Shown here in pieces: positions 18,801 through 52,718 of a DNA stretch of 64,000 nt. The stretch is taken from contig OY783212.1 in NCBI GenBank assembly GCA_963678705.1, positions 7,378,001-7,442,000 of the forward strand, written 5' to 3'. The notes beneath the pieces were generated by a model that was not told the origin of the DNA, did no database searches, and was given only the letters and a program-made list of their open reading frames with translations. The DNA is from Panorpa germanica. Taxonomy: Eukaryota; Arthropoda; Insecta; Mecoptera; Panorpidae. Made by a program: the position numbers and the translations under genes. Numbering within the stretch: position 1 is the stretch's first letter; every line of letters begins with the position of its first letter.

Positions 18801-21800
18801 AATATAATAAAAGTGTTTAGGAACTTTAATTTTTATATTTTTTGAAAATGATTTGTTTTCTAATGCAGTTTATTATGCTGATTCAAAAGTGACAACTATT
18901 TTTAATTATTTGTTACGGTTTTTAAATAGTTAATGTTTAAATACAGTATTTTGACGTAATTATTAATTGAACAACATATTTTGAATATGAATTATTGAAA
19001 GATATCTCTAATTTTATATACACGCTTCTTTTCATTGAACAATAAAATTATTCTGTTGGCCTTAAATTTATTGAAAACTTCATTGACAGCTAGTATTATG
19101 TAATTTGCAGGAAGAGTTGGTGAGTGAAGTAACCAGTATCATCCGCAAGGAGGCCGTGCCGGTGACATTTGACAGACACGTGTACTTCGTGAACTTCTCT
19201 TCATTTGATCGTCAATCACCTATATATTTTAATGTTGTTCGAGATCCGATAGATAAAGTTTATTCTAGGTAAATATTTTGGTGGTAAATGCAATTCTAGA
19301 AATATTAATATAGGGTTACAGCCTGAATGATATATATTAACAATGGAAATTATAAAATTTAATTTTAAAACTTTGCTTTCTGTCTATTGCTGAATATTAA
19401 AAAGAAAGGTTTAAAATTTCGTTGTTGTATGAGTGCTATTTATATGATAAATCTATAAATAATTTTTATTTAAGTACTTGATGAGCAATGACAACAGTCA
19501 TCTATTCCTTTGTTTGTAAGTAAATTGCACGTAAAAATGATTGCAGCATTTTAGGCTTAAAATTGCCTAAGAATGAAACATTTGATAACTAATATAATTA
19601 TTGCTATAACTAACAAATATAAATTTCTTTATTGTTTGCCGTAAATATAAAATACATATCAGTATAATAAATGCATAACATTACTTTTCGCCTGAAATTA
19701 AAAAATTCTATAATTTCTTGATAATAATTTTCATTTGTTAAAGGAATTATATTTTTGCAAATATAGAAAGAAAGTTTGTCAATTTTAACAAGAGTATAAC
19801 CTTCTCTTGGCTTAAATTCAAAATTAAAAATACCAATGTTTTATCAATTTTAACAAGAGATTCATCTCAAGAAATGTAGAAAATCTAATTTTTGTTAAAA
19901 TTAAAAATGTCGAAGTTTTATCCATTTTAACAAGAGTATAACCTTCTTTCATCTCCAAAAATGTAGAAAATCTAATTTTTTTAAAATTAAAAATATCAAA
20001 CTTTTATCAATTTTAACAAGAGTATAACCTTCTTTCATCTTCAAAAATGTAGAAAATCTAATTTTTTTAAAATTAAAAATATCAAACTTTTATCAATTTT
20101 AACAAGAGTATAACCTTCTTTCATCTCCAAAAATGTAGAAAATCTAATTTTTGTTAAAATTAAAAATATCAATTTTTTTTATCAATTTTAACAAGAGTAT
20201 AACCTTCTTTCATCTTCAAAAATGTAGAAAATCTAATTTTTGTTAAAATTAAAAATATCAAACTTTTATCAATTTTAACAAGAGTATAACCTTCTTTCAT
20301 CTCCAAAAATGTAGAAAATCTAATTTTTGTTAAAATTAAAAATATCAAACTTCTATCAATTTTAACAAGAGTATTATAACCTTCTTTCATCTCCAAAAAT
20401 GTAGAAAATCTAATTTTTGTTAAAATTAAAAATATCAAACTTCTATCAATTTTAACAAGAGTATTATAACCTTCTTTCATCTCCAAAAATGTAGAAAATC
20501 TAATTTTTGTTAAAATTAAAAATATCAAACTTCTATCAATTTTAACAAGAGTATAACCTTCTTTCATCTCCAAAAATGTAGAAAATCTAATTTTTGTTAA
20601 AATTAAATATATCAAACTTTTATCAATTTTAACAAGAGTATAACCTTCTTTCATCTCCAAAAATGTAGAAAATCTAATTTTTGTTAAAATTAAAAATATC
20701 AAACTTCTATCAATTTTAAGAAGAGTATATATAACCTTCTATCAACTCAAAAAATGTAGAAAATCTAATTTTTGTTAAAATTAAAAATATCAAACTTTTA
20801 TCAATTTTAACAAGAGTATAACCTTCTTTCATCTCCAAAAATGTAGAAAATGTAATTTTTGTTAAAATTAAAAATATTAAACTTTTATCAATTTTAACAA
20901 GAGTATAACCTTCTTTCATCTCCAAAAATGTAGAAAATCTAATTTTTGTTAAAATTAAAAATATCAAACTTTTATCAATTTTAACAAGAGTATAACTTTT
21001 TTTCATCTCAAGAAATGCAGAAGATTCTACTTTTGCTAAAATTTAAAATAGAATATGTTTATCATTGGTTGACAGGAGTATATCCTTTCCTCATCTGAAA
21101 TAACGCAGAAAAAGACAATTTTTAACGCCTGATCATAATGCAACTATATATACCAATTGTAAGTATATATAGTTGCATACTTATCAGGCGTTAAAATTTA
21201 TAAGCTCATAGTGCCATCTACAAAACAAATGATGAACTGTATCTGTTATATCTATTGTTTAATAGGTGGCGCATTTTATAGTCAATTTATAAACCACTTT
21301 TACAAAATTAATAATATGATAAATAATGTCGTTGACAAAGTTCAAATATCTATTCTCACAAACATTTAAAAATCTTTGTTTAATAACGCATAAATTTAAA
21401 TTCAAGTAAAATAGTTTAATTCAAAAACAGAATTAAATTTTGAAATGAAATTAGGTATAAATTTGTTAAATTTGACGAGGCAAACGCTAATGGTTTCTGG
21501 CTTTCTTGTTTGATCAATATCGTTAAATTACAGGTAACATAGCATTTAAGAAAATACAGCAACCGCAGCGAAGAGTTTTAAATACTCATTATTACAGGTT
21601 CTATTATGCACGAGCCAGTAAACGTTTGGAAAAATTAAAGCGGTCAATTGGTCCACCTAAGAAACATTTGAGCAAAACGTTTGATGAATGTTTTAAAAAT
21701 GGTAACGAAGAATGCAAATTTGTAAGTGGAAAACCGTATGATCTATCAATTCCATACTTTTGTGGTCACGATTATAGATGCATGTAAGAAATTCATTATT

Positions 21801-23250: not shown

Positions 23251-26200
23251 TCATTTCTTCTTTGCCTGAAGACCTGCACCAGCGTTGAATTTAAAGAAGA
23301 TAATATCTCCATCATCAACAGTATAATTACGTCCTTGTTGACGATATTTTCCAGCTGATTTCGCTGCAGCTTCACTACCTTCTTCTTTAAAATCTTTGTA
23401 ATGCATTACTTCAGCCATGATGAAACCTTTTTCAAAATCTGTATGGATCCTACCAGCAGCTTGTGGAGCTTTGGTTCCTTTCTGAAATAATAAATTGGAA
23501 TATTATAAGAAATAGCGTTATACTTTATTACAAGTAGTAGTATTTAATTGAGAAAACAAAATAGTGCAACAAAAGTAATACTGAATTGTTTTAATTACAT
23601 TATAGCAATGCTCAGCAATGCTATATATATAAATAGTTCTAGAAACGAGAATAATTAAGTATAATTATTTAGTTCCTATTATAATTAAATAAAAGCGCAG
23701 ATAAATATCTGTATAAATGTATAGTTATGAATAAATTAACAATAAAATGTTAATTTTCTTGTTTATAATTATATAATAAGAACTTAAATTAAAGAAATGA
23801 TAGTAATATTAAAATTATTATGTTTATTAAGAAACTTATGTGCTATGTTACCTGAATGGTCCAGGCCTTAACTTCATCTGCACCAGCTGTAAAAAAATAC
23901 TCCAACTGCAGGGCTTTGTAACCTTGTACGATGATCTTATCCAATACACTGAAAAGTAAATTATTTATTTAGTTATTATTATAAAATTAGTTCATATAAT
24001 TAAATAGATGTGTTTTCTTAACAAAAATGCTACACCAATAAAGTGAAATACGAGTATATATATATATATCTGGGTAACGTAATCTTCATTTACAAGATTT
24101 TAATCACAAATTCTTGAAAAGAGAATAATGTATTGACATTTGATTAAAATTTGCATATTTATGTGTTTACCCACATTTATCATTACACCACAATTAAATT
24201 GAAGATCGGTAACCAAATTTATAATGAATAATAATATATATAATGTATGCATAGTGAAACAGAAAGTAATAAATTTGTGGCTTAGAACTAAAAGAGTTAG
24301 CCATTTTTTTTCAAAATTTGAAAATACATAATCAGATTCTATCCAAACATATCTATTATTTGAACCAAAGTTAAAATAGATATTCTGCTTTATGTCAAAT
24401 GGAGTTAAAATAACTTTTGCTAAAAACTTTCATCTCGATTTTAAATGTGGATTTTTTGACAATGGCCTTTTTAACCACAAGCCACCGAAATAACATCTTT
24501 TATCTTGACTGTACTGGGGACAATGTTTTCAAACCCGAATTAAATAATAATGATAGGGTATGGTTTTATGAAATTTCAAGATTTTTATTTTAGAATTATC
24601 ATTTCAATTTATAATAACACAAAAAATATACTGAAGCTATTACACCTGCAATGTTATTTTTAAAACAGAGGCGGACTGGCTGACAATTTTGACGAATGTT
24701 AAAAGGATCAGTGACCGAGGGGTAACAGGTTCTTTTGTATATTATAATTATGAACCACAACTTTAGTATTAACTAGCTAACTTGAACTAATAATTTTGAA
24801 ACTCTTACCTGGTATTCTTAATACACTTATTTAATCAACGTAAACGTTAATTAAATTTGTCATAAGGTTAACATGACTTGTTTTAAAGAAAGCTGCTAAA
24901 TCAGTTAGAAGAGTTTATTGAATCAATGTTTGAAGACACAATATTTAATGCAGTACTAATCCGCCACTGTTTCAAAAAGTTAATAACGTAATATAGATAG
25001 CTGTTGATAATATGATTCTAGAAATAGTGGAGTTACATAATTATAATGAAATTCCGAATCTAAATTCGATTAAAATGGCTCATTGATATTTATCCCACGT
25101 TGAATAATATATTAAACTATTTATTCTAATAATAAACATTGAAATAATGAAAATATTTCTAAAGAATACGCAAAATGTAATTGCTTTCAAATTTCTTCAA
25201 ATATACTAATAAAAATATCACACTGCTACAAGTGTCTTAGGAAGACATTGAAAATATGCTATTATGGTTATTAACGAAACATGTCATTATATTTTTTTTT
25301 GACTTTTGTTTTTGTGGACTTTTTATTTATATAATAAAAAAATGCCTGTAATCATAATAAAAACGTTGAAATTGTTTTTATTCTTATTTCTTTTATAATA
25401 AATATATATTATTACAATGTTCTACTTTATTTACTATCTTTTTGTTAGAACATGTTATTACAGCAGGTATGTTCAATTTCTTGTTAAATAAAAAGTCTAT
25501 TGAGGTTGTTGTGCGTAAAAATTATCAGAAAATCCGAAAGTTGCGTTTCATTTTTCGCGGTAATTTTGAATATGACATAATATTTAAAATAGTGTTTTTA
25601 AACTAACCTGTTGCATTTCTTCTCCTCGCAGAATGCTGCTCGTTCTGCAGCATCCTCCATCTGGATCAGTTGGTGTTCGAACACACCTGAGAATGGGATA
25701 ATTATTGCACCAGGATCGTTCTTATCAACCCATTCCTTTATCTTGGCTAACCTATTGATTTAATTAATGTTAGTTGCGTATTAAAAATCAACCAATGTAT
25801 GATATTTTAAAAACATTTACCATTTATTCTTTTTCCTGATGAAATCATTTTCCGATAGATTTATTAGGTAAATACAAGGTTTCGTGGTTAGGAATAAAAA
25901 TTTATTCAGGTATTCAATCTGAAAATTAAATTAATGTTTAAAATATTAACTATATATTAATTATAATATATTTAAAAAAAAGAAAATATTACATACATCG
26001 ACTACACTCCAGTCATGGAATCGGAGATGTTGCTTTTCATCTACTAAAACAGCCTTAAATCTATGAAGAGCATCCTGAAAAAGAAAAAAAAATAACTTAG
26101 TGTGATGAGATTTCATATGCAAATTAGTATCAATGAAATCTACCTAATAAAACGGTATCACTTTTAAATAGGGGTCATTCATAAACTAAATATAAATTTC

Positions 26201-32200: not shown

Positions 32201-35200
32201 ATTTGTGGTATAATAGAAAGAGGGTTAATAATTTTAAGATTGTGATTTTTATTTATTTTTGGTCGTTCTTTTCTACATTTTATATTTTAACCCTGGAACT
32301 TATGACTCATTTTTCTACCTTCAAAATTAGTCCTACGGAGATAAATGGACTTTATCATGCATAAAGATCTATGTTATTTTATAAGAAAGAAAACGGTGTG
32401 TGTCAAAGATCCAAATTAGAAACTGAAAAACCAAAGATATCAATAAAACCTTTTATGTTTTCAAAAATATTCGCGTGAGGTCCCTAGTAATGAGTTTGAT
32501 ATCGCATTGACTACTTAGGTTTCATAATCTAAGACGATTCTGTCGATTTATAATAGAAAGCATTCCGTTACGGGGGGTAGGTCAAAAGGCTATTAAGGAA
32601 GAAAGTGACACAAGTGTCAATAAAATCTACAAAACAACAATGAAGACCAAAATGACAAATAATACAGTGACAAATGATAATCAAACATTAATCAATCATG
32701 GTGGTCAAAGAAATGACAAATAAAAACCACCCTGTCACCCTGTGTGGTCAAAATGTCTATAGCGTATGTTTTTATTTATGATCTGCTAATGGGAATAAAT
32801 TTAAGGCTTTTATGTAGCTATGCACACCTATTTTGGGATTAAATCTATTTACATATGTAATCAAAGGATATTTACTTACAATACTCCACTACATCGCTGC
32901 TTAATAAGTGTACGATTATGTATGTACATAATCAATATAACTTGATAAAAACCAAAACAAAATGGTGCAAAAATAGAACCCGAAGACACAGCAGTATAGC
33001 GTCAAGTATCGAAGCTCACTGTGTCACTAATAAGTAGTTATCTCCCAGTAAACCATTAGAAGTTATTATTTCAACTTCCAACTTCAATTCGTTACGATAG
33101 ATTTCGTACGAATTCAAGTTCTCTAAATGTATATTTCTTTAAAATTACTTACACATATAATACATACAATATTTGTTAAAGTAACTTCTTTGAATTATCA
33201 ATTTTTAGTAAAAACAATACTTACATATTCTCCCTTTAGTTTCTTATCGGCTCCTCGGCCAACTGTTTTCTCCAACTTGTCTAGTTTAGCCATTAAACTT
33301 TCCTCATCTTTCAGACGAAGCTCTTCTCCGATGATTTCCAAGTCTCGGACGGGATTAACATCACCTTCTACATGGATAACATCTTCGCTGTCAAACGCAC
33401 CTGGAATAAACATCAGTTGTTTAATTTTATGTAAGAATATCGAAAAATGTGCGAAATTCTAGTAGAACTGGTATTACAGAATAAATATTTCCTCGAACAT
33501 AACGTCTACTCCGTGCCTGAATAAGAAAAGATTTAAAATTAAAATCCATAAATTACGTCACACAAATTTCATGTTATTCTGAGACTCCCCTCCCTTCCTC
33601 ACACATTTTTAATGAATACAAATTTATCATATTCAATCAAATTTTTTCGAAATTTTGTCTCCCAGGAAAATTATTTCGAAGAAGTCTATTTCAGACTGCA
33701 TGTGACGCTACAAAGATTCACATACTATGGTCGGTAACCACCACCATTTAAATAGACAATTAGTTTACAAGTGCAATATTTAACATCATGTTTAAAACAA
33801 TACTATTGTTTTCTAACAATGCAGTTGATAATGTTTTAATCATAGATTAGACACGTATGATCCTGTAAATATTTGATGGATGATCATTTCGCGTGTCAAA
33901 CTAGATAATAGCCACTATCCCCTCCCCTACCGCATGGGAGAATATCAATAACAATTCAAAACAAATAAATAACTTGCATTTGCCAGTATAACAATGTATA
34001 CTTACAACTAGGGATGCGACAATCTAAACCTAAAACAGGAGTTGGTTATGCGGCTCCCAAATATATGAACTTACAACGACATTAAAGCATATAAATATCA
34101 GAAGTAAAATTTGTGAACCATGTGCAACTACCAGAGCCTCAAATGTCCAATAACTCCTTATATTTTAGGAGATATTAACAATTAAAATAGTCATTTTGTT
34201 TCTTTAATTTTTCCAATGCATGGTATGTCACGTTCGCCGATTTACCATCTCTTTTATACATCATACGACGTATACCAGTGTGTCTGTGACTACTAATAGC
34301 TTGGTTGTGTATACTATGAAGTATTATATTACGATAGTTAAGGAAAAGGAACAATAAACTGGATTGCTCATTTCTTCTGTGACGTCTTATGCATATCTCA
34401 CATGCGGTAAAACGGAAATTCAAATTTGGTATAACTATCTAGCGTCTACTTTAGGATATTCAAAATAATAAAAACGTCAATGCACACATATTAACCTTAA
34501 TTTCAATCATATATTAAAAAAACGATAAAAAAAAAATGAGTTACAGTTTAATAATATCGATAGATATATCGATTTCGAACATCGGTATGAAGTAAATATC
34601 GAACAATTCACAACTCGACTAACAAATAGGAATCCATATGTGATCAGCTAGTCTATATATGAAATATTTTATTCTGTTTCTATTATTTTTCCAGACTGCA
34701 ATTTGCGATATTATTAATGAAGCTAGCAGCTAGTTATGCCAACGTACTCGTATATCGCACGCGATATATACGGGCAGGGAATATGTTAATTTCTACCTAA
34801 AACATATTATTTTCATAAATGTTTTATTAATGAATAACCTTAATGTAATTATAATAATATCGTATATACACAGGTTGCATGTGTGTTTGTAAAAAAATTG
34901 CGTTTTTAAATAATAAATACTTTAATTATTATAACTAATTACGTTCTGCCAATTAGTGGTAATTAAAAGCGTATTGAATTACAATAAATGTTGATGTTAT
35001 AATTGCAACAGAGTGAAGTATTTAATTACCAAATCAATAATTATAAAATATATGCATACACCTACAATGTAAAAATATTGATTTAATGTCGATTTTTTAA
35101 TAGTCAGTTTATCGTGGTTTATTATAAATTTTGGTTAGTACTTTTGTTTTTCAGTTCTGATTTTAGTTCGAGTCTAACATAACTGTAGTTTAAATATCTG

Positions 35201-38200
35201 GGTTACATTTTTCGTTAGTTAACTATGGTCGATCTTTGATAAAACTATAATTAGCAGTTTTCTATACCGAAAAACCGGAGCAAAACCTGTTGTAAATTAT
35301 TCGAATGCCAAACATGCCAAATATTGTGACCAAATTGCTCGGTCGTTTTCAGGTATGAAGAACGTCTTTAGGAAGAGAATCAGAAACGTACTTGCAAATA
35401 CTTATTCATTCAATTAAATAAATTTATGTGGATAGTTAATGTAACTAATAATTATTATTCTTGTACACAAATTGTCCAAAATATTTAAAATCCATGTACG
35501 GGAAAAAATAGCGCAGACTTGCTTGGTACTGAACCAAAGTATAGAATGCAAAGAGTAATTAAAATGATAAAAAAATATGCGTTGATTTTGTTTCATTCTT
35601 CTATGATCCTCACCTTAAAAAGTAAGTCACAAATTTTAAGTAATATTCATGTACGAATGTTTTTCAAAATATTACGTTAACTTTTACATCTCCAGAGGGT
35701 TTTCGGTAATAGAAATGACCAATATAAAATGCAAATCAATTGAGCAAGTGAAGACAAGTACAAAATCAAACTTAATAATTCAATACTTAGTAATCAGATA
35801 TAATAATAATAACTTACGGCAAAGATGGAATATAGCATCACAAGCGCTGATATTAGAAAGGAAGGCGTTTCCAAGGCCCTGCCCTTCAGACGCGCCCTTT
35901 ACAAGACCAGCAATGTCCACCACGTTCAGGAAGGCTGGTACTTTGCTGGAAAAAAGATTTAAAAAATAATAAAAACGTGCAAATTATTCAAACATGGTCC
36001 GTTATTAAGTTGGCAGGAAGGTGTAAGAGGGTGGACACGAGGAGGAGTTGATCGAAAATTAATGAAGAGTGCCACTGCCACAGTGGTTTTGTTTACTGGA
36101 TAATGATTACTGCAAATGTGATTAAAATATACGTATGAAGAGTACCCAAGAATTAACTAGTGAATTGTTTCTCATGGGAGTAATGATTTTAAACTAAGGC
36201 ACAGATTATATAGTCAACATTAAGTGCATTATCTCTGATTATCTCAATGTTACTATATGTAGTTGTGAACTGATAATTAGAAATATTATACTCGTAATTT
36301 CCTTTGCAGCCAAGTTAAATAATTGCAACAGTTTTTTTTAATATAAATTATTAAAAAATGAATTTGCAGTAACTGAAAATGGTTTCTTTGGAGATGATAT
36401 ATCCACAAAAACAATTAATACCCGAAAATGTGTAGCAACTTGATTTAATTGCTATCCAAGTTACACCTGATCTTAAAATGTAAGAATTCCAAATTTGCGA
36501 TCGAGATAAAAGTTTGAAAGGATTGTATTGATACAAGAAAAATGACATTACTGTCCCTTTTAGCAACAAACTACGTACGCCTCCGCAAAATTTTGTGACG
36601 CTTACCTTACCTTTTTGTGAATGAATGCTACTAATATGATTACAAATTATGTATTTTGTTATTCTAGAACGTCTTATTCTTTTAATTCAAAGTTATAATG
36701 TTTAATTTTTATAGGCAACTAGCAGGGTAATTAAAATTTAGATTAACAGTTTTTACGTAAACAGGAATTTTTGTTATTGTTAAATAAACCATAACAATAC
36801 ATAGAACTGTGTTTAGTGGAAGTACTACTTATGTTAATAGATGCATTATTTTTGGAATGATTAGATTTGGACTAATTTAGCATTGAATTACTTTAGGTTT
36901 GAACAAATTTAGGTTTGGACTAATTAGCTTTAGACTACTTTTTTATTTGAACTAGAGCAAAAGGTTTGGACACATTTAAATTATGAATTGGGCGATGGAT
37001 CAAAATGCAAAAGGACTTCCTTTAGAAATAAATGAAAGATATGGCATTAGCCCTGCCGTTATCATTTTTAAATCTAAATACATAATTCCTAATTTCATTT
37101 TAAAATTAAAATATTTAACTGAAACATTAACTTTCCCTTTTTAGAAGTTTTAAATTCCGAAATATTTTTTACACTTAATAATGACATATGCAAAATTATA
37201 ATTTTCTATCTTTTCTAGTTTAATAATAAATTAATAAAGTACGCGTTTTCCAGATATCTTATAAACAGTTGTCGCCGGCAACTTTGTGTTTTCATCATAT
37301 TTACCAAGGAAAGAGAAGAAATCGAATCGAATATTAGATAACGAACGGTAATTATTATAAGTACATCGTCTTAATTTAAAAGTCAGGTTTCTGGATTAAT
37401 TTATACATAATTTTTTGTACACAAATAATAATATTTAAAACGCATTTTCAAGAAATATTTGACTGGAACTTACATAAACGCAACACACGATAAACGAAGT
37501 AGTAAGTAGAATATAAAAACATAAACTTATATCATAACGGAACCTTATGCACGTTATAATGTTTTACGTCAATTTTTTCATATAAAATCAAAATCGTCTC
37601 GAATTTAAGCCTGAAGCAACACACAGGACATCAAATTATTACAATTTTGTTACAAAATGATCACGTCTCGGTTTTCGCAGACAACGAACGCTCAGTTTTT
37701 AAGATAACGAACTCAAATTGCAGTTATTTTTACTATGTTTAACATTTTTGATATAAGTATATACTTATCATTATCATTTTTTTATTATTTTATAGCCCCC
37801 AGCTTTTAAACATTTATATATTTTTATACAATATTTTATTTGATTTTTTAAATTATATTTTATGCCAAAGTTGTAATGATCGGTATCGTATCAGTATGTA
37901 CTAGATAAATGGATGCTGAGAGGCTAGTAAATTATCAGCCAGATACTGTTTCTGTACTGTTACTATATATCCATTCCTTGTTTTTCCATTAATTCTGAGA
38001 TAACAACTGAAATGCTCTTCAAAGCAATCCCGTTCAAAAATAACACATTTATAAGACTAACCATACAGACCTGGATTCAAATTCACATTCAACGTATACA
38101 GAGTGTTGCAGTCAACGACCTAACCACCTCGCTCACGCTGAGGACAATCAGACATTATATTAACCTAAAAAAAATGTATACAAAAGGTAACTATGTATCT

Positions 38201-41200: not shown

Positions 41201-44200
41201 ACTTAAATAATATTAGACAGTACAAAGTAGTCCACAACTTAAGAGGACTCAAGATGTTAAACAACTGAATGCGGCTCTGAGAGGTCGCTACTAACAAATA
41301 ACATGAATATACTCGTATGTAACAGTATTTTTAAATGGAACATAGTAATATTTCTTCTTAAAAGGTCTGAATTTTGCCTAAAATCTTTAGTTTACGTTCA
41401 GCAAAACTTGAACATAAAATTTCACTTATTTCCATAATTTTTTAACTTACAAATATAACTTTTCTTTATGTTTCTTATGCGTGAAAACGTAACAACCGTT
41501 ACTGTGGTATGCCTCTAGTTTAAAATGTGTTTATTCAAATTTACACCCACGCAGCTTTCATAAGCGAATTGCCAGGCACGTCGCATCTGTATTAGATTTA
41601 CGCTTGTTCGATCAAAGGGATTCAGTATATACATTTATACCCTTTCCAAAGAGATTCAACCCTTCGAATTGAATACTGATCAGCTGAGTAGATGGGAGGG
41701 TGTCGTTTGTAAATGGGAAAGGACAGGGGAGGTGACACAGGATACACAAATGATAGTTAATAATGTCGTAACGTTGACTTCACTGAATAGTTACGCCAAT
41801 GAATTAGAAGTCCTTTAATTAACTGACTTTATAAATATTCAATACCAAAAGGATCAAATGACCCAACTGTATACAGCTTAATAATATTGCTATCTCGTTT
41901 ACACTTATGTGTAATTATGTATAATTATTTCTGTCTCATTTTAACCAATTTATATACTAAAAGGCTTTGAACCTACGAATTTGTTGATTTCTACGAGAAT
42001 TTAATGAAATATTATACAAATATTTTAACACAAGGAAGAGTTACAAAGTAAGAGTGATATAAAAATAATATATTCAGGAGAAGGCGTTAACTTATTTCTC
42101 AATAGCCAGTCATGACATTACCCTAATGTATCGTACAGACTGGTGCGACTTAAACATGCGACATTCAACTTTTATATATTTTCATTTATAAGTTGACATT
42201 ATTTAGACATGAGTTTACTAAATGTGTTGTACTTTTAACGTACAGACTAGAGCGACTTAAACATGCGACACTAATAAAACCCTTACTTATGCTATTTTTA
42301 AAAATTCTACGTATTATTTTTATGAAAAATGTTTCAATCTTAAGTCGGTGCTTATAAAAGGATATGCACGTGCAGCGATTTTGAATGTGGTCTCGAGCAA
42401 AAGGGTCGAGTACTTACTCAGTCTCTACTATAATCTCAAAGTGGGTAGACGCTTTTTTTGTTGTGTTTATTAAATAAATAAAAATAATTGAAAATGGTGT
42501 TCAAATGGACAAATGAAATAGACCTGAACAATAGACCCTTGTCAAATTCAACAGTACGCCAAGTCAATCTTCTGTAGGGCGTATTGGAGTTGTTTTGCAC
42601 TAACATAATTTATCATGAGAGCAAACTTTTACTTTGATTTGTATCGATACACCACTGTTACGAAAGAGTCTATTGTCTTTCATATCACTTCCAGTGCATT
42701 CGTTTGTCCGTTCGCTGATATGCGCTTCCAGTATGAGACCTACATAACGCCCGTAGTATTCGGACGGCTTTGTCGCTTGCAGTGTGCGAGGTTCATTACA
42801 TTTATAGGGTTCGGATAGGTAAAGCGTAGTAGCGCGTATACGTCCAATTAAAATTTGCTTAAATACACTTGCAGTGTGTGAAAGAATAATATTTACCTTA
42901 CTAGCGCAATAACTAATAAACCACAAATTTTCGATTAATAAAAAAAAATGATGTTTACAAAGAAACAATTTATTCAACTTTATATTAATTTGATTTTATA
43001 TTAATACTGTCGGAATTATATAAAATGTCTATAATATACCGATGATTCAATTACGTTAACGTGATATAAAAGACAACCCCCCCCCCCTCCCTTCCACGCT
43101 CCACAACGTTATTCTTTCAGCTCCTTACCAAGACAACAAGAGTCCTACTTATCGTTAGTCGACAGTGTGAGGAGAACCGAAGCCGCGTTAATAAACTTGG
43201 CGCCGATAAATGTCTGACAAATTGCCACCACCCTCATTAAATGACTTTACAGGTTGAGTAGGAGCTTGTTATGGATTGTGTGACTTGGCTAGAATCGAGG
43301 TGAATGCATGAATAGATTATATGCACTAGTAGTATCATAAGAAAGGCAAAGGAGAATCTATAGGATGAGTGCGGAGAGTAGGAAGGGTATTGCAGTCATA
43401 GCTCTTCAAAGACAATCTTTTAAATTTCAAATTCAACCTTTTATAAATCAAATTGAAGTTTAAGATAGATCACTAGTGAAACCACTTTGCTACAGAATTT
43501 GATGACAGATTACAAAATGTTTTGACCAGCTGCCAATCGAGATATTAATGCAAGAAGCTATAAAGAATATACTCCTAATAGGCATCCTTCTAACGTATAT
43601 CTCGAGAACTGTTTTACATACTTACTAAGGAATAATATAGGAAAGTTTTGACTGTTTTTAAGATTGTTTGACGAGTTAGTAAAAAGTATATAGAGTTCTA
43701 AAGTTTTGACTTGTAAACATAGTATTTTGTCATGCTTTTCGCGCGTTAACCTGAGTGCTATACTAGAGTGCAAAGAAAAGTGTTACCAGTATTGTATTTA
43801 GTCCGTAAATGTATTGGTGTTATCTGAGGATTTTTACTTTAAAAAGAATTATTAATAATTTAATCATTATCTATATGTATCCAAGTAAATTTAAATTGTT
43901 GATATAGATAGGGTGCGATTAGCATCTTATCTAATACCGATTCATTTCTACACTAATATTTAGACTTACAATAAAAGAACTTATAACATTATCATAACAT
44001 AATAAGAATTGACTAATTTTCACTGTCATTTTTTGACAGTTTGTGGCATAGTATTTTAACAAACCATTTCAAAAAATGTAAAATCTATTTTTTAGGAACT
44101 CCTCTTAACCGGTGTAATAGAAAATATCAAACTTACCTAGCTGGTTTATGATATGTGCACAAGTAGTCAAATCTCTCATCCGGGACAGGTACGCGACGTG

Positions 44201-47200
44201 CCTGAAATCAAAGGTATTCGGTTAAAACAAATTGTTAGGTCAAGGAGGTTACTGAGAAAGACACACCACGATTACGATTCTACGACCTCTACTTTTAAAT
44301 GCGGCGGTCTCAGGCTACTTATGACCTCTCCAAGGTTCAGCTGATAGCTTTGGATAAATATTGCAAAATATATTTATATTTGCAAAATAAGGATAACGAC
44401 TTTATGTTTAATAACTAAAAAGAATCTTTACTGTCTAAGCAAAAAATACTAATCCAATGTTGCAATTCACTATACGAGTTTATAATAGCACATGAGGGCA
44501 ACAGTTTTCGTCGATAATAATACTCGTAAATAAAATATATTTGTACCATTAAAACATCAACAGATGAATATATTAGTTTAAACATGATATACATTAGCAA
44601 AACATCTTTTAAGTAAGTAAACATTTGTATAAAAATAAACAAGGTAGTTCTTAAGACTTGTAACATTCTGGAGGTAATCTTGGTACAAACATCTCAGGAC
44701 GAGGTATGGGCTCAGGTTTTTTCATATGTCCCGGCAAACGAACGAATGGATTTACATTCTTTTTAAAGTAGTCTACCTTTTCCTTCAGCCAATCTAATCC
44801 TGCTAAAAATCTATTCATTGCTTCAACAAATTTCTCTAAAATAATTGGTGGAGTTTCTGGGTTGTTAACTTTCAAAAAATAACCCATGTAAACACTGGCA
44901 CTAATAATAGCATCCAACCCAGGATACTTAGGCCGTAATCTACCGGCTGCTAAAACAGCTTTGGTAACCATAACCGTTTGTGTTTGCTGTAAATATCCAA
45001 GAACAGGTAAAGTACTACACTCAAGATCAGGTAAAGGTCTGGCAGCTTGAAAGTCACACATTTTATCAAAATAATCACCCGGCTTTTGTAAAAACTTGTT
45101 AAGATTTTGTTCATTAACAAAGTAATAAACCTGATCCTTATACATCAGCGCGTGTTCCTCAGAACCCAAAATCATTACTCGACTTGGTTGGGAATCAGTC
45201 ATTTCCACCAAGTCGTAACCTTCACCATACAGTTTCTCACGCCATTCTGAACGGTCATCATCAGCGGTTGGACGTCTTGGCAAATCGCTGGGAAGATCAA
45301 CATTATAAGGTGGAAGATAATGTTCCGCGTCATCCAAAAATAGTGTTATATGATTGTCACAGACCCAATAATAAGAATTTAAATATTGTATAAGTCCTTT
45401 CCGATCTGGAGTAACCCCAAAAGACGTAGTTAATATTTCATTCTCACCATAGCACACAGGACAATATGTTTTATATTCTCCAACACGATGCTGAAATTCA
45501 TATGGTGAAATACAAAGGTATTCCAAATTGGCTGGTAACTCTTTAATAATACGATTACAATAATGTTGGATGGACATCATTGATTTACACACCGCATCCC
45601 GCGATTCTGCCCACATTTCCCATTTACTTTGACTAGCATCTACTACGACTATATTCTGATATTCTTCGTCAATAAAATATCTAAGCTGCGGTTGATCTAT
45701 GCACCAGCCATCATAAACACATGACAAAGATAGACAGGAACACTCGGAATTCCGTTCCATAATTAATTGCAGATTGGCTCGCAAATCAATAAACAGATAG
45801 GGTATTATGTCGCCCATGACAAGTTCTTCCAATTCATCAACATTATCAGGAAAACCATCTAATATAAATCCTTGTGTGATACAATGTTTATCCGATGCTG
45901 CTGCAATGACTGCTTTGAGTACACTTTCTACTGTTACATTACTTGTCACTGCTTGTTCCTCATTAATATCCATTGCTAAACGAGTCCAAGCTAAGTTATC
46001 TAATACATATGCGACAGAGTCGGCTTTATTAATCACCTTGACTGCAAACTCCTTCGCAAATCTTTGAGCTAATGTTGTTTTACCACATTTTGGGGGGCCA
46101 ATAATGGAAATCTTTATAGGATACAATGGAACAGTTTCATTTTTTGCATTTATATAAGATAATGGGTCTACTCTAAACTTTTGCATGTTAGCCTGGCCAG
46201 CTAGAAAGTAGATATATTGTCTATGAATTACAGGATATATTTCGTTTTTCATTTCTAACGGCAAAAACATCTGAATTGGATTAACACCCTCATGCAATTG
46301 AACTGGACACATCTTGCCAAATCTACTAATAAGATAATAACCATTATTTGCTAATGTTTCTGCCTTTTCTAATGTGGTAAGATATGTACGCTCAAAAAAG
46401 GACTGACTTCTATTTTTATACGGTAATAACTTAAACATTATTTCATTAAATATGTTAGATTGTAATCGATTGTTGGTTTGAATTTGAATCCATGGTATAG
46501 AATGTTCCAGAATATGTTCTTTTATTTCATAAAGAGCATCATGATCCACTTCATACCATGATTCAATTTGCTGGGCGATTCTTATCCTAGCATTTTGTTC
46601 AGTTTCCCAAGAAGGATCGTCTTCTGTGTTTATTATGGGCATTGGATAAGCATCATCAATTCGCTGATTAAGTCTAACAATATCCGTATCCATAGTATCC
46701 CAAACTATAGATTGATAAATATCATCCGTAATTGACTTTCTTGAATCTCGTTTTTGAATTTCTTTTTCACTTAGATTGTCTTCTCGATTAGCAGATAATT
46801 TAACAGACCCTGCCTCTTTATTACTTTCGCCTCCTGCTAATTCATCTACATAATCTCCTTCCTCTTCGTCATATTTGTTCATTGATTCAGCTAGTGCAGC
46901 TAGCGCAGCTTCTTGTTGCTGTTCTTCGTATTTTTGCTTTTTTAATTTTCTAAATTCAGATTTAAAGATTTTTCCACGAATTTTTGTATATTCTGTTATA
47001 ATTTTAGTGTTTTCATCATTCCGTGCTTCGCGTCTTTCGTTTAATATTTGAAGCCAGTCTTGATATATCCTATCAAACATTCGCATTTGCACTTGATCTG
47101 CGGATGTTACTAGTTCTACAAAAACATCAGGAATAGCACAACATTCCAATAATGGCGCAACATCAGACGCTCTAAATGGAAAACCATCCAGAACAAAACC

Positions 47201-50200
47201 TTCAGATAGATATGGTTCTCGAAACCAAGCAGAATGTAAGGCCTTTATTACTTTATCAGGATCCAACGGAATACTCTCATTTATATATTTCTGTATGCTT
47301 TCGTATGCCTCATCAGTATCAGTGATGGTCAATTCCTCATCTGTCGGAGCTTCGATAAACCATTTGGTGTGTTCTCTGCCTGGTAGAGGTTCGGGAAAGT
47401 ATAAACGATTTAGCAGATTCATATAACATATGTAATGCAAACCAAAATTTCGAGCAATTTGTTTCGCGGTAGTTGTCTTTCCGCTACCATATGTACCAAC
47501 AATGCAGATCCGCAATGGAGGAATAACAGTGGGATGTTTATCAAATGGTGCATAGGTGTATGGATTTTGCATAAATTTTTCTTTAGCTTTTTCAGAACTA
47601 AATAAATAAATTTTTCCATAAAATTTGATCATGTATTGTTCCATACCCGGCCATAAAATTTTGTATTCATTATATATAACGGGGCAATATTTATTAGTCT
47701 CTCCAAGACGTCGATGTTCAATTAATTTAAGATCATCATCCTCACCTTCTTCTTCGCCTGCAACCATATCTTCTGCACCTTCATCAATCTGTACTGGTTC
47801 AGTAGGAGGAGCATCATTCTCAATTTCAGCCGCAATATTCTTTAATTCTTGCTCGACATTTTCTTCTTTGTAATCGTACGCTTTCTGTTTATATTTCGAT
47901 CTTAATTGGAGCATTACGCATTCCATTAACTCAACATCGCGTTTGTTGTTAATGTTTACAATGACTGGCTCTAAATATAAGTCATGAAGAAATTGAGTGC
48001 ATTTCAGATACTTCTCTTCAAAATCAATTAGATGTTGCTTGAAGGCTTCCAACATAATATTAACCGAATCAGAATAATCAATATTTACGACTGTGTTGTC
48101 TTGATAAATAGTGTCAAAAGAATCAAAGGCATCTTTGTCAATTATACTACTAAATAAATCGTACATGGCATAATATGTGGAGGATGCTGTACTATGAACA
48201 GATGGACAACGCCCCGCAGCACTCTCATTATCCAACTCAAGAAATAAATTCACATAATCCCTAAACTTTTTATATCGACCAGATATTAATTTGTCCTGTA
48301 TAAATTTATTTTCTGTATCTTCATCCCGTAATATGATTACGTCATCCGCAAACAATTGTTCATCGTATAACTCTTCCCAAGCGGATTGTACAAATGGAAC
48401 AGAATCTATAATCCAACCACCATATTTTATCTTATTGTTTGTCTCTTCACATCTCTTCTGATCTGCAAGTCGAATTGCTTCTGCCAACATAGGGCCATAA
48501 TCTTCGTCCTCAATTTGTATCAGGTCAACTTCAGTTGGATCTTTAAGACCTGCAATAACAATTTCCACAACATCGTCATCATTGAATTGCACTTCCTCTG
48601 GCTCAGGTATAGGATTTGCAATATCTTCTGGAATATATTCATTCAAAAGATTGTTGTCCAATTTAATTCTTAAACAAAGGGCTAAATCATGAAAAAACGG
48701 CATAGAGCGGCTCTCGAAAATTTCCATAATTTCTGCTAGCGTGTGTTGAGGTTTCGAGTATCTGCAGGTACAACAGTCGCAGTTAACATTTACGCAATCA
48801 CCAGCAAATTTCCGAAGCGTGAATAGTTCTTTGATGTAACTAACAATTTCAGCCTTAAATGCTAATATTTTTTCTTTTCTTTCCTCTTCAAGTCTTTTCC
48901 CTTCCTCTTTTCTTCGTTCAGTTACAATGTCTCTTGCCTTAATAAATTCTAGTTCGTACCTTTCAAACAATATTCTAAATATTTTTCTTTTTCGCCAAGA
49001 AAATTTAAGATCCTCAATTGTGATAACATGTCCATTATACAAATAACTTAAAAATTCCGCTACGACACTTTTTCCAGAGTGATTTGGACCGAACATAAAT
49101 ATCCTGCAACCCGGCTTTGGTTGTGGAGGAAGTAAATATTTTCTAGGATTCGTAATAAACTTTTCTACTGCTTCTTCAGAAGACATCATATATACCCTAT
49201 CCATATATTTGACGGCTAATTGCGGATTTCCTGTCAAAAGCTTTCCTTCTTTTAATAAAACAGGGCAATACGTTGTCCAATCAGATTTCAGCCAATCATA
49301 TAATGGAGACAGTTTCATCATTGTGCAGAGTTTTGTTAAACATTCATTCGGTGAAAGACCAAAAAACATATCTCCACTTCTTGGACCGCCTTCTCCACCC
49401 AAATCTTCTGGTTCGCCTTCTTCTGCTCCACCTTCATCCGGTCCACCCTCTCCCGTGACTACCTTCTCACTTGATTCAGTTTCTTTTGCAGGTTCAAAAA
49501 ACCTTTGTGGAACGAACATTTGCTGTAAAGGTAATGTTCGCAATCTAGTACTAGTTGTGTCAAACATATCGGCAAGAGTCGTTCGTCCATCAACTCTAAT
49601 GATGTATTGTGGATCATGCAACAACATATATTTTTCAATAATTGGTAACGCGTACAATCTGTACCTGTCAATCTGTATACGCACGCTGATAGGATCATTT
49701 TTTTCCTTAATCGCTTTTATTGTTACCTTAGGAGCGTCATCAACTTCTTCTTCAAGGTTATTATTGTTTATTTCGGATTCTTCACTTGCATAACTTCCAT
49801 GATCTTCTGAATGAAATGACATATCAGATGTGCCTTCGGTTGCCGCGTCGAATATATCACATTTTATATCAGAGCATATGGCAGCGTTGGCGTCATCATA
49901 GCATTCGCACATGCTTCTTTTAATAATAACATCCTCATCCGGGCAAGAAATATATATAATAACATCAGGTTTGTACGGTAAACTGAAAAGAGATAACAAT
50001 TGAGATTTCGTTGTATCCTCTGGACAAAAAAATTTAGACGCATCCATAACAACTGAAATGTTAGAGCTAGATCCCTTCCTGTATAAATTTTCTTGGTTAA
50101 ATTCAGTTGGTTCAGGAATAATAGTATAATCATCTTCCACTTTATTATCTGTTATGCTCATTCCTTCTTCCTCTCCTTCTCCTAATTCTTCACCTTCATT

Positions 50201-52718
50201 TTCCTCCTCTTCTTCTACTTCCTCCTCAACTACTTCTTTCTTAGCAGTCGCTTTTTCTAAAGCCAATAATTTTTCTTGCTCTTTCTTCTCTTCTTCCTCT
50301 TGGAGTCTCTTATCCCTGTAATTGATGGCAGCTTCTATGATAGCACCCTCCATCATTTCGTGTACTGTTTTTTCTACAGTAAAGACTGTGGACTCCGTAA
50401 CCATAGTTGCGTCAATTGGTTCTACCAGATCAGATGGAATTATTGGTATGCCAACGATGACATATCCACGATGCTGAACTTCACGTGATCTTACTCTCTT
50501 TTCAATAAGTTTCATAATGATATCAGGATGAAGAGACCTTCCTAATTTTAAACTATATTCTAAACATAGACCTTCTTTTGATTTGTTTTTTACTTCGTCT
50601 TGTATTACCGTTTCCGGGTCTATGTAAACACACTTCCATAAATTGGCTAAGAGTTTTCCTAAGGCTATTTCACCAATACCACCTTTTCCAAGAATTACGA
50701 AGCACGTAGGCTTGGATCCGATATAACTTAAACGTGCCGTATCATGAGAGTAATAATTTTTTACAGTAACCGCTTTCTGAACTTCAAGGCCTGGAGTTTC
50801 CTGACCGACTTCTTCATCTGGTGATTGTGATTCATTTGTAAATGAAGCTATTTTATCAAGACGAATAGTTGGATTAATACCTTCCATTTGACTGTACGTT
50901 ATATTCGCCTTTGGCCGCCATATTTGATTTAAAGAGTCGTCTTCTTCAAGTTCTACGGTTTCATACGCGTGGAAAAAGCCCATTCCTTTACTTATATAGT
51001 GTTGCCTGTTTTGAAATTTTACAAATTCAATTCTTTCCTTTTCGTTTAGCTGCTTGTCTACTAATGCTTTATAATATTCTTCACCATAAATGACATAAGC
51101 CAAGTCTTCGTGGGCGTCAGCCTTTCCAGCAGTAAATGTGCTGAAACGAAGGCTGATCTTTCTATCCAAATCTTCCATTTTGTTGTTTAAGAGATTTATT
51201 ATTTAATAAAAAAAACTAATTGTTATAGCTAAAATAATTGTAATAGTCGTACATATTGTTATTATGAATTGTGTCTATGTGTTGAGCAACATATCAACAA
51301 AATAAAAATCACTTGTTTTCTACTATAAAGAAACATCGGCGCCATCTTGGATTACTTTATTATTTGAAATCACATAACAAAAAATCTTAATCTGCTGTTT
51401 ATCAGAAACGAATACAAATTCACCCGAATTCACTACCAGTTTACTAAAATCGAGAACATGTACCAAACTAAAGAGACGAGTGCTTAAAGACTTGTTCCTA
51501 ATACAAATACCGACAAATTATTATATAAATCAATTACATACAATTATAATTTAAATTAAGAGGAAGTGGATAGTGAATCACTGGATCCACTACTCACAAG
51601 CCAGTAGTTCAGTGTCACAAAATTTACTCAATATCATTATATTTGATAGTACGTAAATTCTAATAAAAACTAATTCTAATAATAAACTAATCACTTGAAA
51701 ATGTGTCTTGAAAAATAATAGTTTAAAACTATCTATTTCGTATTAAAGGGTGTTTTTCAATTACGACATTAGAGCGCATAATGCAGCATTATGCTCAGCA
51801 TTAAATGTTTACAGTTTGAGTGCAATTGAATGTGCACAGTTTGAGCATTTTAAAAAGTTCTGCTTTGGCATGATGCGTGCAATTGATAAAACTAATTAGC
51901 ATAAAATGTAGAAATTCTTGTAACTGTTGACAATTACTATTGATTACCATTTCCAGTACAACTGCATGAAATGATTTAATGCCTTTAATAATAATCCTTA
52001 TTTTAATTAAATCATAAAAATATTTTCTTTAAATAAAATTAAAAGTAGAATAAAATTTATAAAATAGAGTTAAAAAATATAAACAATATTTGACAATAAA
52101 AATGAATAAAAGTACAGATTTAAAAACTAATGTATGTTCCTATTAAACATTCGCACAATGCGACACAGTGTGGCACTAAGTGGTATTGTGCTCAGTAATT
52201 GGAAGACACCCAAAAACAACTGTGAATTAGATATAAAATGTATTTTTCTTGGTTATAAACAACATTGTTGATAAATTTTTAATTAAAATTAGTATAGAAA
52301 CAAACCTTCTGTTTAGGACTCCTATTTATAACTGTTTAACTGACCTCTGTTAACTTTTGATAATATTTAACGATCAATTAATTCTGAATTAGGCTATTTG
52401 TTTACCCAAAATTATCAGTCGACCTTAAATAAATTCTATATAAATAAGAATATAAGTAAGACGCCAATTAAACAATTACCAAATAGGGACCTAAGGTTTA
52501 GTACATAATAAAAAAAATAATTTAAAAAAATACTTATTTTCATTTGGATCGATAGTGCAGAACGGGAAATTTTCAGCAGCAGCCTGACTTTTTGTTAGCA
52601 CATTGAAGAATGTTGATTTGCCCACGTTTGGTACCCCGACAATTCCAACACGTAAGTTGGTTCCTACACGACCAATTAATGGTTTTCGTTCGGGTTCTTC
52701 AACTTTCTTAGGCGGCAT
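23251..52718 (-). CDS. Ola1: Obg-like ATPase 1 (OLA1), nine coding exons over 29.5 kb
   Basis: Coding exons, in transcript order: 52538-52718, 44137-44197, 35818-35945, 33225-33400, 25997-26074, 25821-25918, 25608-25751, 23852-23948, 23251-23481; 1,194 nt, 397 residues, against about 396 in human OLA1. Start ATG at 52716-52718 ([13 protein letters not shown]). Motifs: P-loop GVPNVGKST (~residues 30-38), switch region DIAGLVKG, the OLA1-specific NLSE in place of the usual NKxD G4 motif (explaining ATP over GTP preference in this family), then a C-terminal TGS domain ([29 protein letters not shown]). It is a cytosolic YchF-type P-loop ATPase linked to translation initiation, ribosomes and stress responses. 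Eight of nine exons join by GT-AG; the first junction needs an AT-AC intron (separate entry). A TTTTAG acceptor 8 nt before the ATG implies a further 5' UTR exon upstream. Introns are unusually long, up to 8.3 kb, and one hosts AK9. Confidence 0.96.
23949..25607 (-). other. OLA1 intron 7
   Basis: A 1.66-kb GT-AG intron (phase 2). AT-rich with a short (TA)n run near 24055. Nothing else recognised. Confidence 0.8.
27259..27410. repeat. imperfect direct duplication, about 87-bp spacing
   Basis: TCTTGGAATGCGAGTTTCGCACTT with GCCACAAGCTAATTCCA (about 27260-27320) is repeated in diverged form (TCTTGCAATGCAACTTTAACACTT with GCCACAAGGTAATTCCA) about 87 bp further on. The two copies are followed by a similar GGTTTATTT/GATTTATTT. 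Origin unknown. Confidence 0.6.
27518..27665. repeat. dispersed repeat B, copy 1
   Basis: Shares an extended, diverged match in the same orientation with 43575-43710: GGCATC, GTATATCT, then AGGAATAA, TTTGACTGTTTTT, TTAGTAAAA and TTTAAAGTT/TCTAAAGTT in the same order. No ends or coding capacity were recognised. Confidence 0.6.
28374..29125 (+). mobile_element. 5'-truncated non-LTR retrotransposon (LINE) with 13-bp target duplication
   Basis: The insert (28387-29112) is bounded by ATACATAACTGTC at 28374-28386 and 29113-29125. It ends in an A-rich tail (AATAAAAATAAAAATAAT). Its plus-strand reading, broken by frame changes, gives the basic/acidic C-terminal tail seen in hymenopteran LINEs: [29 protein letters not shown], then [34 protein letters not shown]...ETLEH is the end-domain zinc knuckle. 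Only the 3' end, about 0.7 kb, was copied. A run of about 15 G interrupts it at 28522-28537. Confidence 0.85.
30089..30132. repeat. (GT)n microsatellite
   Basis: An interrupted GT run (TGTGCGTGTCGTGTGTGTG and TGGGTGTGTGTG). A simple repeat in OLA1 intron 4. Confidence 0.8.
30831..31184 (+). mobile_element. unclassified retro-insertion with target duplication and A-rich tail
   Basis: TCACCAGGGT occurs at 30831-30840 and again at 31175-31184. The 334-bp insert ends in AATAAACATAAAAAAAAA on its plus strand. This fits target-primed reverse transcription (a LINE 3' end, SINE or processed RNA). The interior is purine-rich and short of long frames; I cannot name the family. Confidence 0.6.
33401..35817 (-). 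other. OLA1 intron 3
   Basis: A 2.4-kb GT-AG intron (phase 1). It contains one copy of dispersed repeat C (34160-34445); the rest is AT-rich with no exon seen. Confidence 0.8.
34160..34445. repeat. dispersed repeat C, copy 1
   Basis: Matches 56335-56570 in order and orientation: AGAGATATTAACAA/AGGAGATATTAACAA, TTCCAATGCATGGTA, GTGTGT, GGTTGTGTATA/GGGTTGTATAT, AAGTATTATATTACGA, and GAAATTCAAATTTG. The first block also appears, inverted, at 17915-18000. Family unknown; no coding capacity. Confidence 0.65.
36859..36982. repeat. short degenerate tandem motifs
   Basis: Variants of TTTGGACTAATTTAG recur five or more times (TTTGGACTAATTTAG, TTTAGGTTTGGACTAATTAG, TTTAGACTA, GGTTTGGACACATTTA). Likely simple sequence growth. 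Confidence 0.45.
38862..39060 (+). mobile_element. Tc1/mariner-related transposon fragment (DUF4817-like start)
   Basis: Begins with TATACAGAGTGTCTCAAAAA, the kind of terminal sequence these elements carry. Then an ATG at 38971 opens [17 protein letters not shown], which resembles the helix-turn-helix DUF4817 start of insect transposases, before a stop at about 39057. Only the 5' end is recognisable. A second similar end (TATACAGAGTGTTGCAG) lies at about 38095. Confidence 0.55.
39462..39646 (+). mobile_element. short non-autonomous Helitron, apparently end-complete
   Basis: Starts TCTTAATATATAAAAATTC and ends TTGCCGGGATTAGCTAGT, both typical of insect Helitrons, and sits exactly between A (39461) and T (39647), the known Helitron target. 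It is 185 bp with no coding capacity. The expected hairpin just before the CTAGT end is weak. Confidence 0.75.
40787..41000 (+). mobile_element. Helitron 5'-end fragment
   Basis: TCTTCTTCTTGTATATAAATAATT, then GAACTGCTAGACCGATTTGG and CTAATTTT, the conserved start of insect Helitrons. No CTAGT 3' end was found nearby, so the right boundary is open. It runs into the repeat shared with 5640-5840 at about 40980-41080. Confidence 0.6.
40980..41080. repeat. copy 2 of the 5.7-kb repeat
   Basis: TGTATCGTAGATTTATTC, TTTTAAGCATGAGTC and CCAAACTCTCGTAATTGGAACT match 5750-5825 in order. In this copy the inverted partner seen at 5660-5695 is not evident. Confidence 0.55.
42128..42560. mobile_element. 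family A transposon, copy 2 (right end missing)
   Basis: Left end GTATCGTACAGACTGGTGCG, ACTTAAACATGCGAC; a second copy of the same end motif starts about 111 bp further in, at 42239. The interior parallels copy 1 (13315-13590) up to GAAATAGACCTGAACA. No right inverted end was found, so the copy is truncated there or has diverged. Confidence 0.65.
43575..43710. repeat. dispersed repeat B, copy 2
   Basis: Partner of 27518-27665: GTATATCTCGAGAACTG, AGGAATAATATAGGAAAG, TTTTGACTGTTTTTAAGA, TTAGTAAAAAGTATATAGAG. Same orientation. Family unknown. Confidence 0.6.
44651..51178 (-). CDS. AK9: adenylate kinase 9 homologue, intronless, nested in OLA1 intron 1
   Basis: One uninterrupted frame of 2,175 residues; human AK9 has about 1,911 and many exons. 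Start MEDLDRK sits in a good context (AAAATGG). Four nucleoside-kinase modules: P-loop 1 [11 protein letters not shown] (~165; Lys replaced by Glu, probably inactive), P-loop 2 GPNHSGKS (~690), P-loop 3 [11 protein letters not shown] (~1,229), P-loop 4 [11 protein letters not shown] (~1,690). Modules 3 and 4 have the LDGFP motif; module 2 has IIDSVP. Between them recur CPV...SSEEA..KF..NP..Y modules typical of AK9 (~650, ~1,180, ~1,625, ~1,895 and later). Acidic linkers and a Cys cluster ([11 protein letters not shown], ~800) also occur. The end ([24 protein letters not shown]) matches the human C-terminus. AK9 transfers phosphate among (d)NMP/NDP and (d)NTP; ciliary or sperm use is likely but not shown. 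The intronless state suggests an old retrocopy or intron loss. Confidence 0.94.
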   Translation of the reverse strand: MEDLDRKISLRFSTFTAGKADAHEDLAYVIYGEEYYKALVDKQLNEKERIEFVKFQNRQHYISKGMGFFHAYETVELEEDDSLNQIWRPKANITYSQMEGINPTIRLDKIASFTNESQSPDEEVGQETPGLEVQKAVTVKNYYSHDTARLSYIGSKPTCFVILGKGGIGEIALGKLLANLWKCVYIDPETVIQDEVKNKSKEGLCLEYSLKLGRSLHPDIIMKLIEKRVRSREVQHRGYVIVGIPIIPSDLVEPIDATMVTESTVFTVEKTVHEMMEGAIIEAAINYRDKRLQEEEEKKEQEKLLALEKATAKKEVVEEEVEEEEENEGEELGEGEEEGMSITDNKVEDDYTIIPEPTEFNQENLYRKGSSSNISVVMDASKFFCPEDTTKSQLLSLFSLPYKPDVIIYISCPDEDVIIKRSMCECYDDANAAICSDIKCDIFDAATEGTSDMSFHSEDHGSYASEESEINNNNLEEEVDDAPKVTIKAIKEKNDPISVRIQIDRYRLYALPIIEKYMLLHDPQYIIRVDGRTTLADMFDTTSTRLRTLPLQQMFVPQRFFEPAKETESSEKVVTGEGGPDEGGAEEGEPEDLGGEGGPRSGDMFFGLSPNECLTKLCTMMKLSPLYDWLKSDWTTYCPVLLKEGKLLTGNPQLAVKYMDRVYMMSSEEAVEKFITNPRKYLLPPQPKPGCRIFMFGPNHSGKSVVAEFLSYLYNGHVITIEDLKFSWRKRKIFRILFERYELEFIKARDIVTERRKEEGKRLEEERKEKILAFKAEIVSYIKELFTLRKFAGDCVNVNCDCCTCRYSKPQHTLAEIMEIFESRSMPFFHDLALCLRIKLDNNLLNEYIPEDIANPIPEPEEVQFNDDDVVEIVIAGLKDPTEVDLIQIEDEDYGPMLAEAIRLADQKRCEETNNKIKYGGWIIDSVPFVQSAWEELYDEQLFADDVIILRDEDTENKFIQDKLISGRYKKFRDYVNLFLELDNESAAGRCPSVHSTASSTYYAMYDLFSSIIDKDAFDSFDTIYQDNTVVNIDYSDSVNIMLEAFKQHLIDFEEKYLKCTQFLHDLYLEPVIVNINNKRDVELMECVMLQLRSKYKQKAYDYKEENVEQELKNIAAEIENDAPPTEPVQIDEGAEDMVAGEEEGEDDDLKLIEHRRLGETNKYCPVIYNEYKILWPGMEQYMIKFYGKIYLFSSEKAKEKFMQNPYTYAPFDKHPTVIPPLRICIVGTYGSGKTTTAKQIARNFGLHYICYMNLLNRLYFPEPLPGREHTKWFIEAPTDEELTITDTDEAYESIQKYINESIPLDPDKVIKALHSAWFREPYLSEGFVLDGFPFRASDVAPLLECCAIPDVFVELVTSADQVQMRMFDRIYQDWLQILNERREARNDENTKIITEYTKIRGKIFKSEFRKLKKQKYEEQQQEAALAALAESMNKYDEEEGDYVDELAGGESNKEAGSVKLSANREDNLSEKEIQKRDSRKSITDDIYQSIVWDTMDTDIVRLNQRIDDAYPMPIINTEDDPSWETEQNARIRIAQQIESWYEVDHDALYEIKEHILEHSIPWIQIQTNNRLQSNIFNEIMFKLLPYKNRSQSFFERTYLTTLEKAETLANNGYYLISRFGKMCPVQLHEGVNPIQMFLPLEMKNEIYPVIHRQYIYFLAGQANMQKFRVDPLSYINAKNETVPLYPIKISIIGPPKCGKTTLAQRFAKEFAVKVINKADSVAYVLDNLAWTRLAMDINEEQAVTSNVTVESVLKAVIAAASDKHCITQGFILDGFPDNVDELEELVMGDIIPYLFIDLRANLQLIMERNSECSCLSLSCVYDGWCIDQPQLRYFIDEEYQNIVVVDASQSKWEMWAESRDAVCKSMMSIQHYCNRIIKELPANLEYLCISPYEFQHRVGEYKTYCPVCYGENEILTTSFGVTPDRKGLIQYLNSYYWVCDNHITLFLDDAEHYLPPYNVDLPSDLPRRPTADDDRSEWREKLYGEGYDLVEMTDSQPSRVMILGSEEHALMYKDQVYYFVNEQNLNKFLQKPGDYFDKMCDFQAARPLPDLECSTLPVLGYLQQTQTVMVTKAVLAAGRLRPKYPGLDAIISASVYMGYFLKVNNPETPPIILEKFVEAMNRFLAGLDWLKEKVDYFKKNVNPFVRLPGHMKKPEPIPRPEMFVPRLPPECYKS
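51341..51349 (-). promoter_or_regulatory. YY1/Pho-type motif upstream of AK9
   Basis: On the minus strand this reads CAAGATGGC (within TCCAAGATGGCGCC), the core bound by YY1 and its fly homologue Pho, common at animal promoters. It lies about 165 nt upstream of the AK9 ATG, where the transcription start would be expected. A single short motif, so tentative. Confidence 0.4.
51748..52211. mobile_element. inverted-repeat DNA element between AK9 and OLA1 exon 1
   Basis: The ends GGGTGTTTTTCAATTAC (51748) and GTAATTGGAAGACACCC (to 52211) are inverted repeats with two mismatches; total 464 bp. The interior has GCATTATGCTCAGCATT-type short palindromes and no frame. It sits about 570 bp upstream of the AK9 start. 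Flanks are A-rich, so a target duplication cannot be decided. Confidence 0.65.

Follow-up and report, generated by a model that had tools for sequence, protein, structure and literature searches.

A putative U2-type AT-AC intron at the start of the coding region of the OLA1 gene of Panorpa germanica

The locus raises the question whether the first coding-region intron of OLA1, a housekeeping gene, in Panorpa germanica begins with AT and ends with AC and, if so, which spliceosome would remove it. The stretch of DNA analysed (the window, 64,000 nucleotides) lies within contig 9 of a genome of 464 Mb and 249 contigs, which was searched as well. On its minus strand it carries a frameshift-free OLA1 coding model whose nine coding exons total 1194 nt, stop codon counted, and encode 397 residues, the number that an earlier sequence-only reading had given. 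Exon 1 (52538-52718) runs from the ATG to GAAA, contains the P-loop region and ends in phase 1, while exon 2 (44137-44197) opens with GTCGC, the serine codon being split between them as A/GT. The other exons are located at 35818-35945 (exon 3), 33225-33400 (exon 4), 25997-26074 (exon 5), 25821-25918 (exon 6), 25608-25751 (exon 7), 23852-23948 (exon 8) and 23251-23481 (exon 9 with the stop codon). For exons 2-9 the boundaries were set by eye on the basis of the protein match, with translation as a check afterwards. Of the eight introns, seven display GT-AG ends, intron 1 being the sole exception.

Comparison with solved structures revealed that the model, exon 1 included, is colinear with human OLA1 (2ohf_A; E 8.6e-188, residues 1-389 of 397), and this full-length colinearity places it in the OLA1/YchF family. 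The exon 1-2 junction is free of gaps in all five alignments printed, the best five of seven hits. When the first 182 of the 397 residues were compared with the animal's own genome, eight hits were recorded; four are at the OLA1 locus (all E ≤1.1e-6) and the remaining four have E values of 0.3 to 2.6. Strong matches are thus confined to the gene itself, and no retrocopy displaying the spliced form was seen in this search. The best 80 of the 583 confirmed loci in genome contigs include no insect relative, these 80 all having prokaryote titles, and the scan of viral contigs gave one locus, of 51% identity. By inspection, TTACTTTTAG/ATACAAAA is a plausible acceptor upstream of the ATG; there may thus be an exon in the 5' UTR, in which case the AT-AC intron would strictly be number two.

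Intron 1 occupies 8340 nt of the minus strand (44198-52537) and reads with its flanks GAAA/ATAAGTATT...TTTCAGGCAC/GTCGC. Exon 1 ends in ...GATCCAAATGAAA at 52538 and the intron starts with ATAAGTATTT at 52537; the intron ends in ...TTTGATTTCAGGCAC at 44198 and exon 2 starts with GTCGCGTACC at 44197, the same bases and coordinates as in the sequence-only reading. Moving both ends by linked offsets of -4 to +5 gives ten junctions that keep the length of 397, CTIDPN and the conserved 12-residue downstream flank, with the end pairs GA-AG, AA-GG, AA-GC, AA-CA, AT-AC, TA-CG, AA-GT, AG-TC, GT-CG and TA-GC, respectively. Offset 0 (AT-AC) alone of these ten yields the conserved 13-residue OLA1 string, identical to that of human OLA1, and restores DPNE-S-RVPVP, which bears out the earlier claim that only the removal of ATAAGT...GCAC does so. 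The three junction residues in 2ohf, 7y9i, 5ee0 and 1ni3, OLA1-like chains that we take to be eukaryotic, are E, then S/A/A/A and then R/R/R/K. The junction E is lost by the GA-AG junction, and the R/K by the GT-CG junction, which would give DPNENNVPVPDER; eight GT-CG introns are annotated in Drosophila (PMC4528330). Among 400,000 random minus-strand position pairs, with all ten linked offsets allowed, ATAAGT...AC arose by chance 123 times (0.03%), and AT...AC in any context 23,235 times (5.8%). AT and AC are the intron ends predicted from the protein.

The 5' splice site ATAAGTAT (52530-52537) has G at +5 and agrees with the U1 complement at every position from +2 to +8; AAA/ATAAGTAT scores 8/11, the match being continuous over +2 to +8. 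It agrees with the minor-spliceosome consensus ATATCCTTT at 5/9 positions, with mismatches at +4, +5 and +6. The ATATCC part of the latter consensus is also in the literature. As judged by these consensus forms, the site (ATAAG) is compatible with U1 and U6 and is not close to (A/G)TATCCTT. In the U2-type AT-AC introns of sodium channels, +5G is present throughout and is described as important for U2-type recognition, and +4A and +6T are said to better it (PMC2831892).

At the other end, the last four intron bases are GCAC (44198-44201), with AC as the putative 3' splice site, and a CAG (44202-44204) lies four bases upstream of it. Joining the AT donor to this CAG would place a stop codon at residue 69; were the intron retained, the stop would come at residue 76. 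This end has a moderately T-rich tract, and CTAAC (44234-44238) is by consensus match the best U2-type branch-point candidate, with 37 nt from the branch A to the intron end. Adjacent to it, CTCCTTGAC (44239-44247) matches the U12 branch consensus at 8/9 positions, 42 nt from the intron end.

Removal of the intron, with AT-AC ends, by the minor (U12) spliceosome appears improbable. The reading would draw on CTCCTTGAC and on the Drosophila release 6.04 table, in which 9 of 13 AT-AC introns are U12-type and four are U2-type (PMC4528330). The U12 and U6atac snRNA genes each gave one match above the cut-off in the animal's own genome, so the machinery for minor splicing is apparently there, and it is the signals, rather than any lack of it, that speak against U12 use. 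With U12-type AT-AC introns the OLA1 intron shares the terminal dinucleotides and the U12-branch-like upstream motif, but its 5' site departs from ATATCC at all three mismatched positions and carries the +5G important for U2-type recognition (PMC2831892). The good branch match also lies too far upstream, and a nearer one, TGTTTTAAC at 24 nt, reaches only 6/9. U12 branch sites are usually about 10-20 nt from the intron end. By this distance rule a TTCCTTRAC-like branch site appears to be missing near the 3' end, and CTCCTTGAC is possibly a relic or due to chance.

A GA-AG intron, AAT/GAAAATAAGT...TTTCAG/GCACGT, with an altered 13-residue string is very unlikely. It preserves the length and uses the CAG as acceptor, and all 12 GA-AG introns of Drosophila have RNA-seq support (PMC4528330); however, it would replace the E and S of DPNESR (DPNES becoming DPNAR), of which the E is kept in the four OLA1-like chains. 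The GAAAAT donor, moreover, pairs poorly with U1 on inspection.

That the assembly or the sequencing is at fault, or the OLA1 gene broken, might be argued on the ground that the bases come from a single assembly, and is given an equally small chance. Every single substitution, insertion and deletion was made at 40 positions of the 5' end and 50 of the 3' end (720 edits), with splice sites allowed as far as 60 nt inside the intron, and none (0/720) yielded a GT-AG or GC-AG intron with the conserved 20-residue OLA1 protein. At least two errors would thus be needed, and they would have happened to leave ATAAGT and AC. The other OLA1 exons are open and in frame, and the first 182 residues match strongly at this locus alone, which also argue against the error or a broken gene. 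A hidden micro-exon, considered like a sequencing error by the sequence-only reading, was sought in the three same-strand frames of intron 1, where DPN, PNES, NESR, ESRV, FPFC and CTID are all absent; the scan detects these six strings, and a micro-exon devoid of them would escape it. The earlier proposal, an AT-AC intron whose 5' site is U2-like, gains support from the unique junction, the 720 edits and the random pairs. At the sequence level these tests favour such an intron over GT-AG, GC-AG, a single sequencing error and a minor-spliceosome intron.

A search for GT-AG pairs reaching up to 400 nt inside the intron found seven in-frame pairs within 25 residues of the expected OLA1 length. 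The nearest canonical pair, GT at +4 with AG at -4, shifts the frame and gives a stop at residue 90; the earlier assertion that the GT-AG choice on offer alters the frame holds for this pair only, since in-frame pairs such as donor +4 with acceptor +25 exist. An isoform using this donor (AATAA/GTATTT) and an acceptor inside exon 2 is the in-frame GT-AG option nearest in length (-7 residues), but it has scarcely any likelihood as the main OLA1 product, because it puts NK in place of a conserved 10-residue stretch that is for the most part retained between human and bacterial YchF, and its acceptor has no pyrimidine tract on inspection. No GT-AG pair keeps the conserved 12-residue flank, either in the unedited sequence or with any one of the 720 edits. 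The intronIC paper cautions that, in organisms such as chicken and Tetraodon, the great majority of annotated non-canonical U2 introns have canonical sites within a few bases, conserved exon boundaries having probably dictated where they were put (PMC7367187). In form this warning applies to OLA1 intron 1, yet the canonical GT and AG close to its ends put the reading frame out when used together.

We consider it probable that OLA1 intron 1 is a U2-type AT-AC intron, which the major spliceosome would remove by branching at the CTAAC-like site and skipping the CAG. The donor A/ATAAGTAT would be recognised by U1 and then by U6, and the CTAAC-like branch site together with the pyrimidine-rich stretch ending in CAG would bring in U2 and U2AF. 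Step two would then join the AC, four bases past the CAG, to exon 2 and pass over the CAG; AC would be chosen since an A at +1 goes with C, and not with G, as the last intron base. A rule pairing the first and last intron nucleotides was reportedly published by Parker and Siliciano in 1993, as cited in PMC6726248. In yeast, AT-AC ranks second only to GT-AG in efficiency (PMC6726248). With the CAG so close to its end, OLA1 intron 1 would serve as a clean natural experiment on how the major spliceosome obeys the first-last nucleotide rule.

Introns of this type are already known, though uncommon, and an AT-AC intron in OLA1 leaves the known picture unchanged. The subclass spliced by the major spliceosome, to which the sequence-only reading had appealed, is exemplified by intron 21 of the vertebrate sodium channel gene SCN4A (PMC2831892), which resembles OLA1 intron 1 in combining AT-AC with +5G. 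The SCN4A intron requires the major spliceosome (PMC2831892), as that of OLA1 probably does; the latter differs in gene and in the CAG four bases before the AC. The four AT-AC (U2) introns of Drosophila melanogaster, among 60,223 introns in all in release 6.03, are likewise from an insect and in coding sequence (4/4), and all four are supported by RNA-seq (PMC4528330). Human major AT-AC introns such as TAF2 intron 1 and SYCP2 intron 5 have the same ends and are U2-type, in other genes and another species; 85 major AT-AC introns or related subtypes are counted in human (PMC8280824). In C. elegans, at least 42 AT-AC introns are suspected to be real on manual inspection (PMC3033335). No paper on an AT-AC intron in OLA1 was found, and Obg-like ATPase is unmentioned among the matches listed, from partial coverage of the literature.

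The domain III-IV region of sodium-channel-like sequence, examined for a second AT-AC intron, was located at three places in the animal's own genome. At two of them, both on contig 18 (L013 and L015), the domain III-IV intron is GT-AG at the position read, a result that counts against the AT-AC reading, and the stretch read at the third (L014, contig 1) lacks an intron there. This position may differ from that of SCN4A intron 21, so it provides no real control for AT-AC introns. We take the sodium-channel-like sequence of this genome to resemble insect para.

The claim that intron 1 hosts a gene is substantiated by an intronless open frame of 2175 codons (44651-51178), nested on the same strand, with adenylate kinase, YHS and AAA-type domain matches; from these domains we name it adenylate-kinase-9-like. 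The last 489 residues of this frame match only themselves in the animal's own genome, and no multi-exon parent with that part was therefore found. A fuller account of the locus, to which we give slightly less than an even chance, supposes a competition at the second step, in which the CAG would serve U2AF in step one and be rejected in step two, with the same-strand 2175-codon gene inside the 8.3 kb intron, which may have arisen in one of the two ways given below. As leakage to the CAG gives the stop at residue 69, OLA1 output would in this competition be set by the accuracy of the choice between AC and CAG.

As for its origin, two compensating changes may have produced the intron out of a GT-AG one whose acceptor was a tandem CAGGCAG, or it may be a trapped descendant of a U12-type intron. 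Existing U2-type AT-AC introns are thought by Lin et al. (2010) to stem from rare U12-to-U2 conversion followed by trapping (PMC2831892). Non-canonical splices are reported to mislead gene predictors and to make read alignment harder (PMC4528330), and for this reason the annotation of OLA1 in this species may well be wrong around residue 61.

Elsewhere in the window, where the Rfam scan gave no family at the gathering threshold, an open frame of 1622 codons (7947-12815, plus strand) has no Pfam match at E 0.01 and contains two tandem arrays, of 87 bp in 10 copies (8639-9515) and of 141 bp in 5.2 copies (10751-11485). A further array at 19861-21050 (13.6 copies, 94% match) has the 87 bp period of the one at 8639-9515, with a differing unit. 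The open frame at 73-621 (plus strand) matches DHR-2 Lobe A and is presumably part of a DOCK-type gene.
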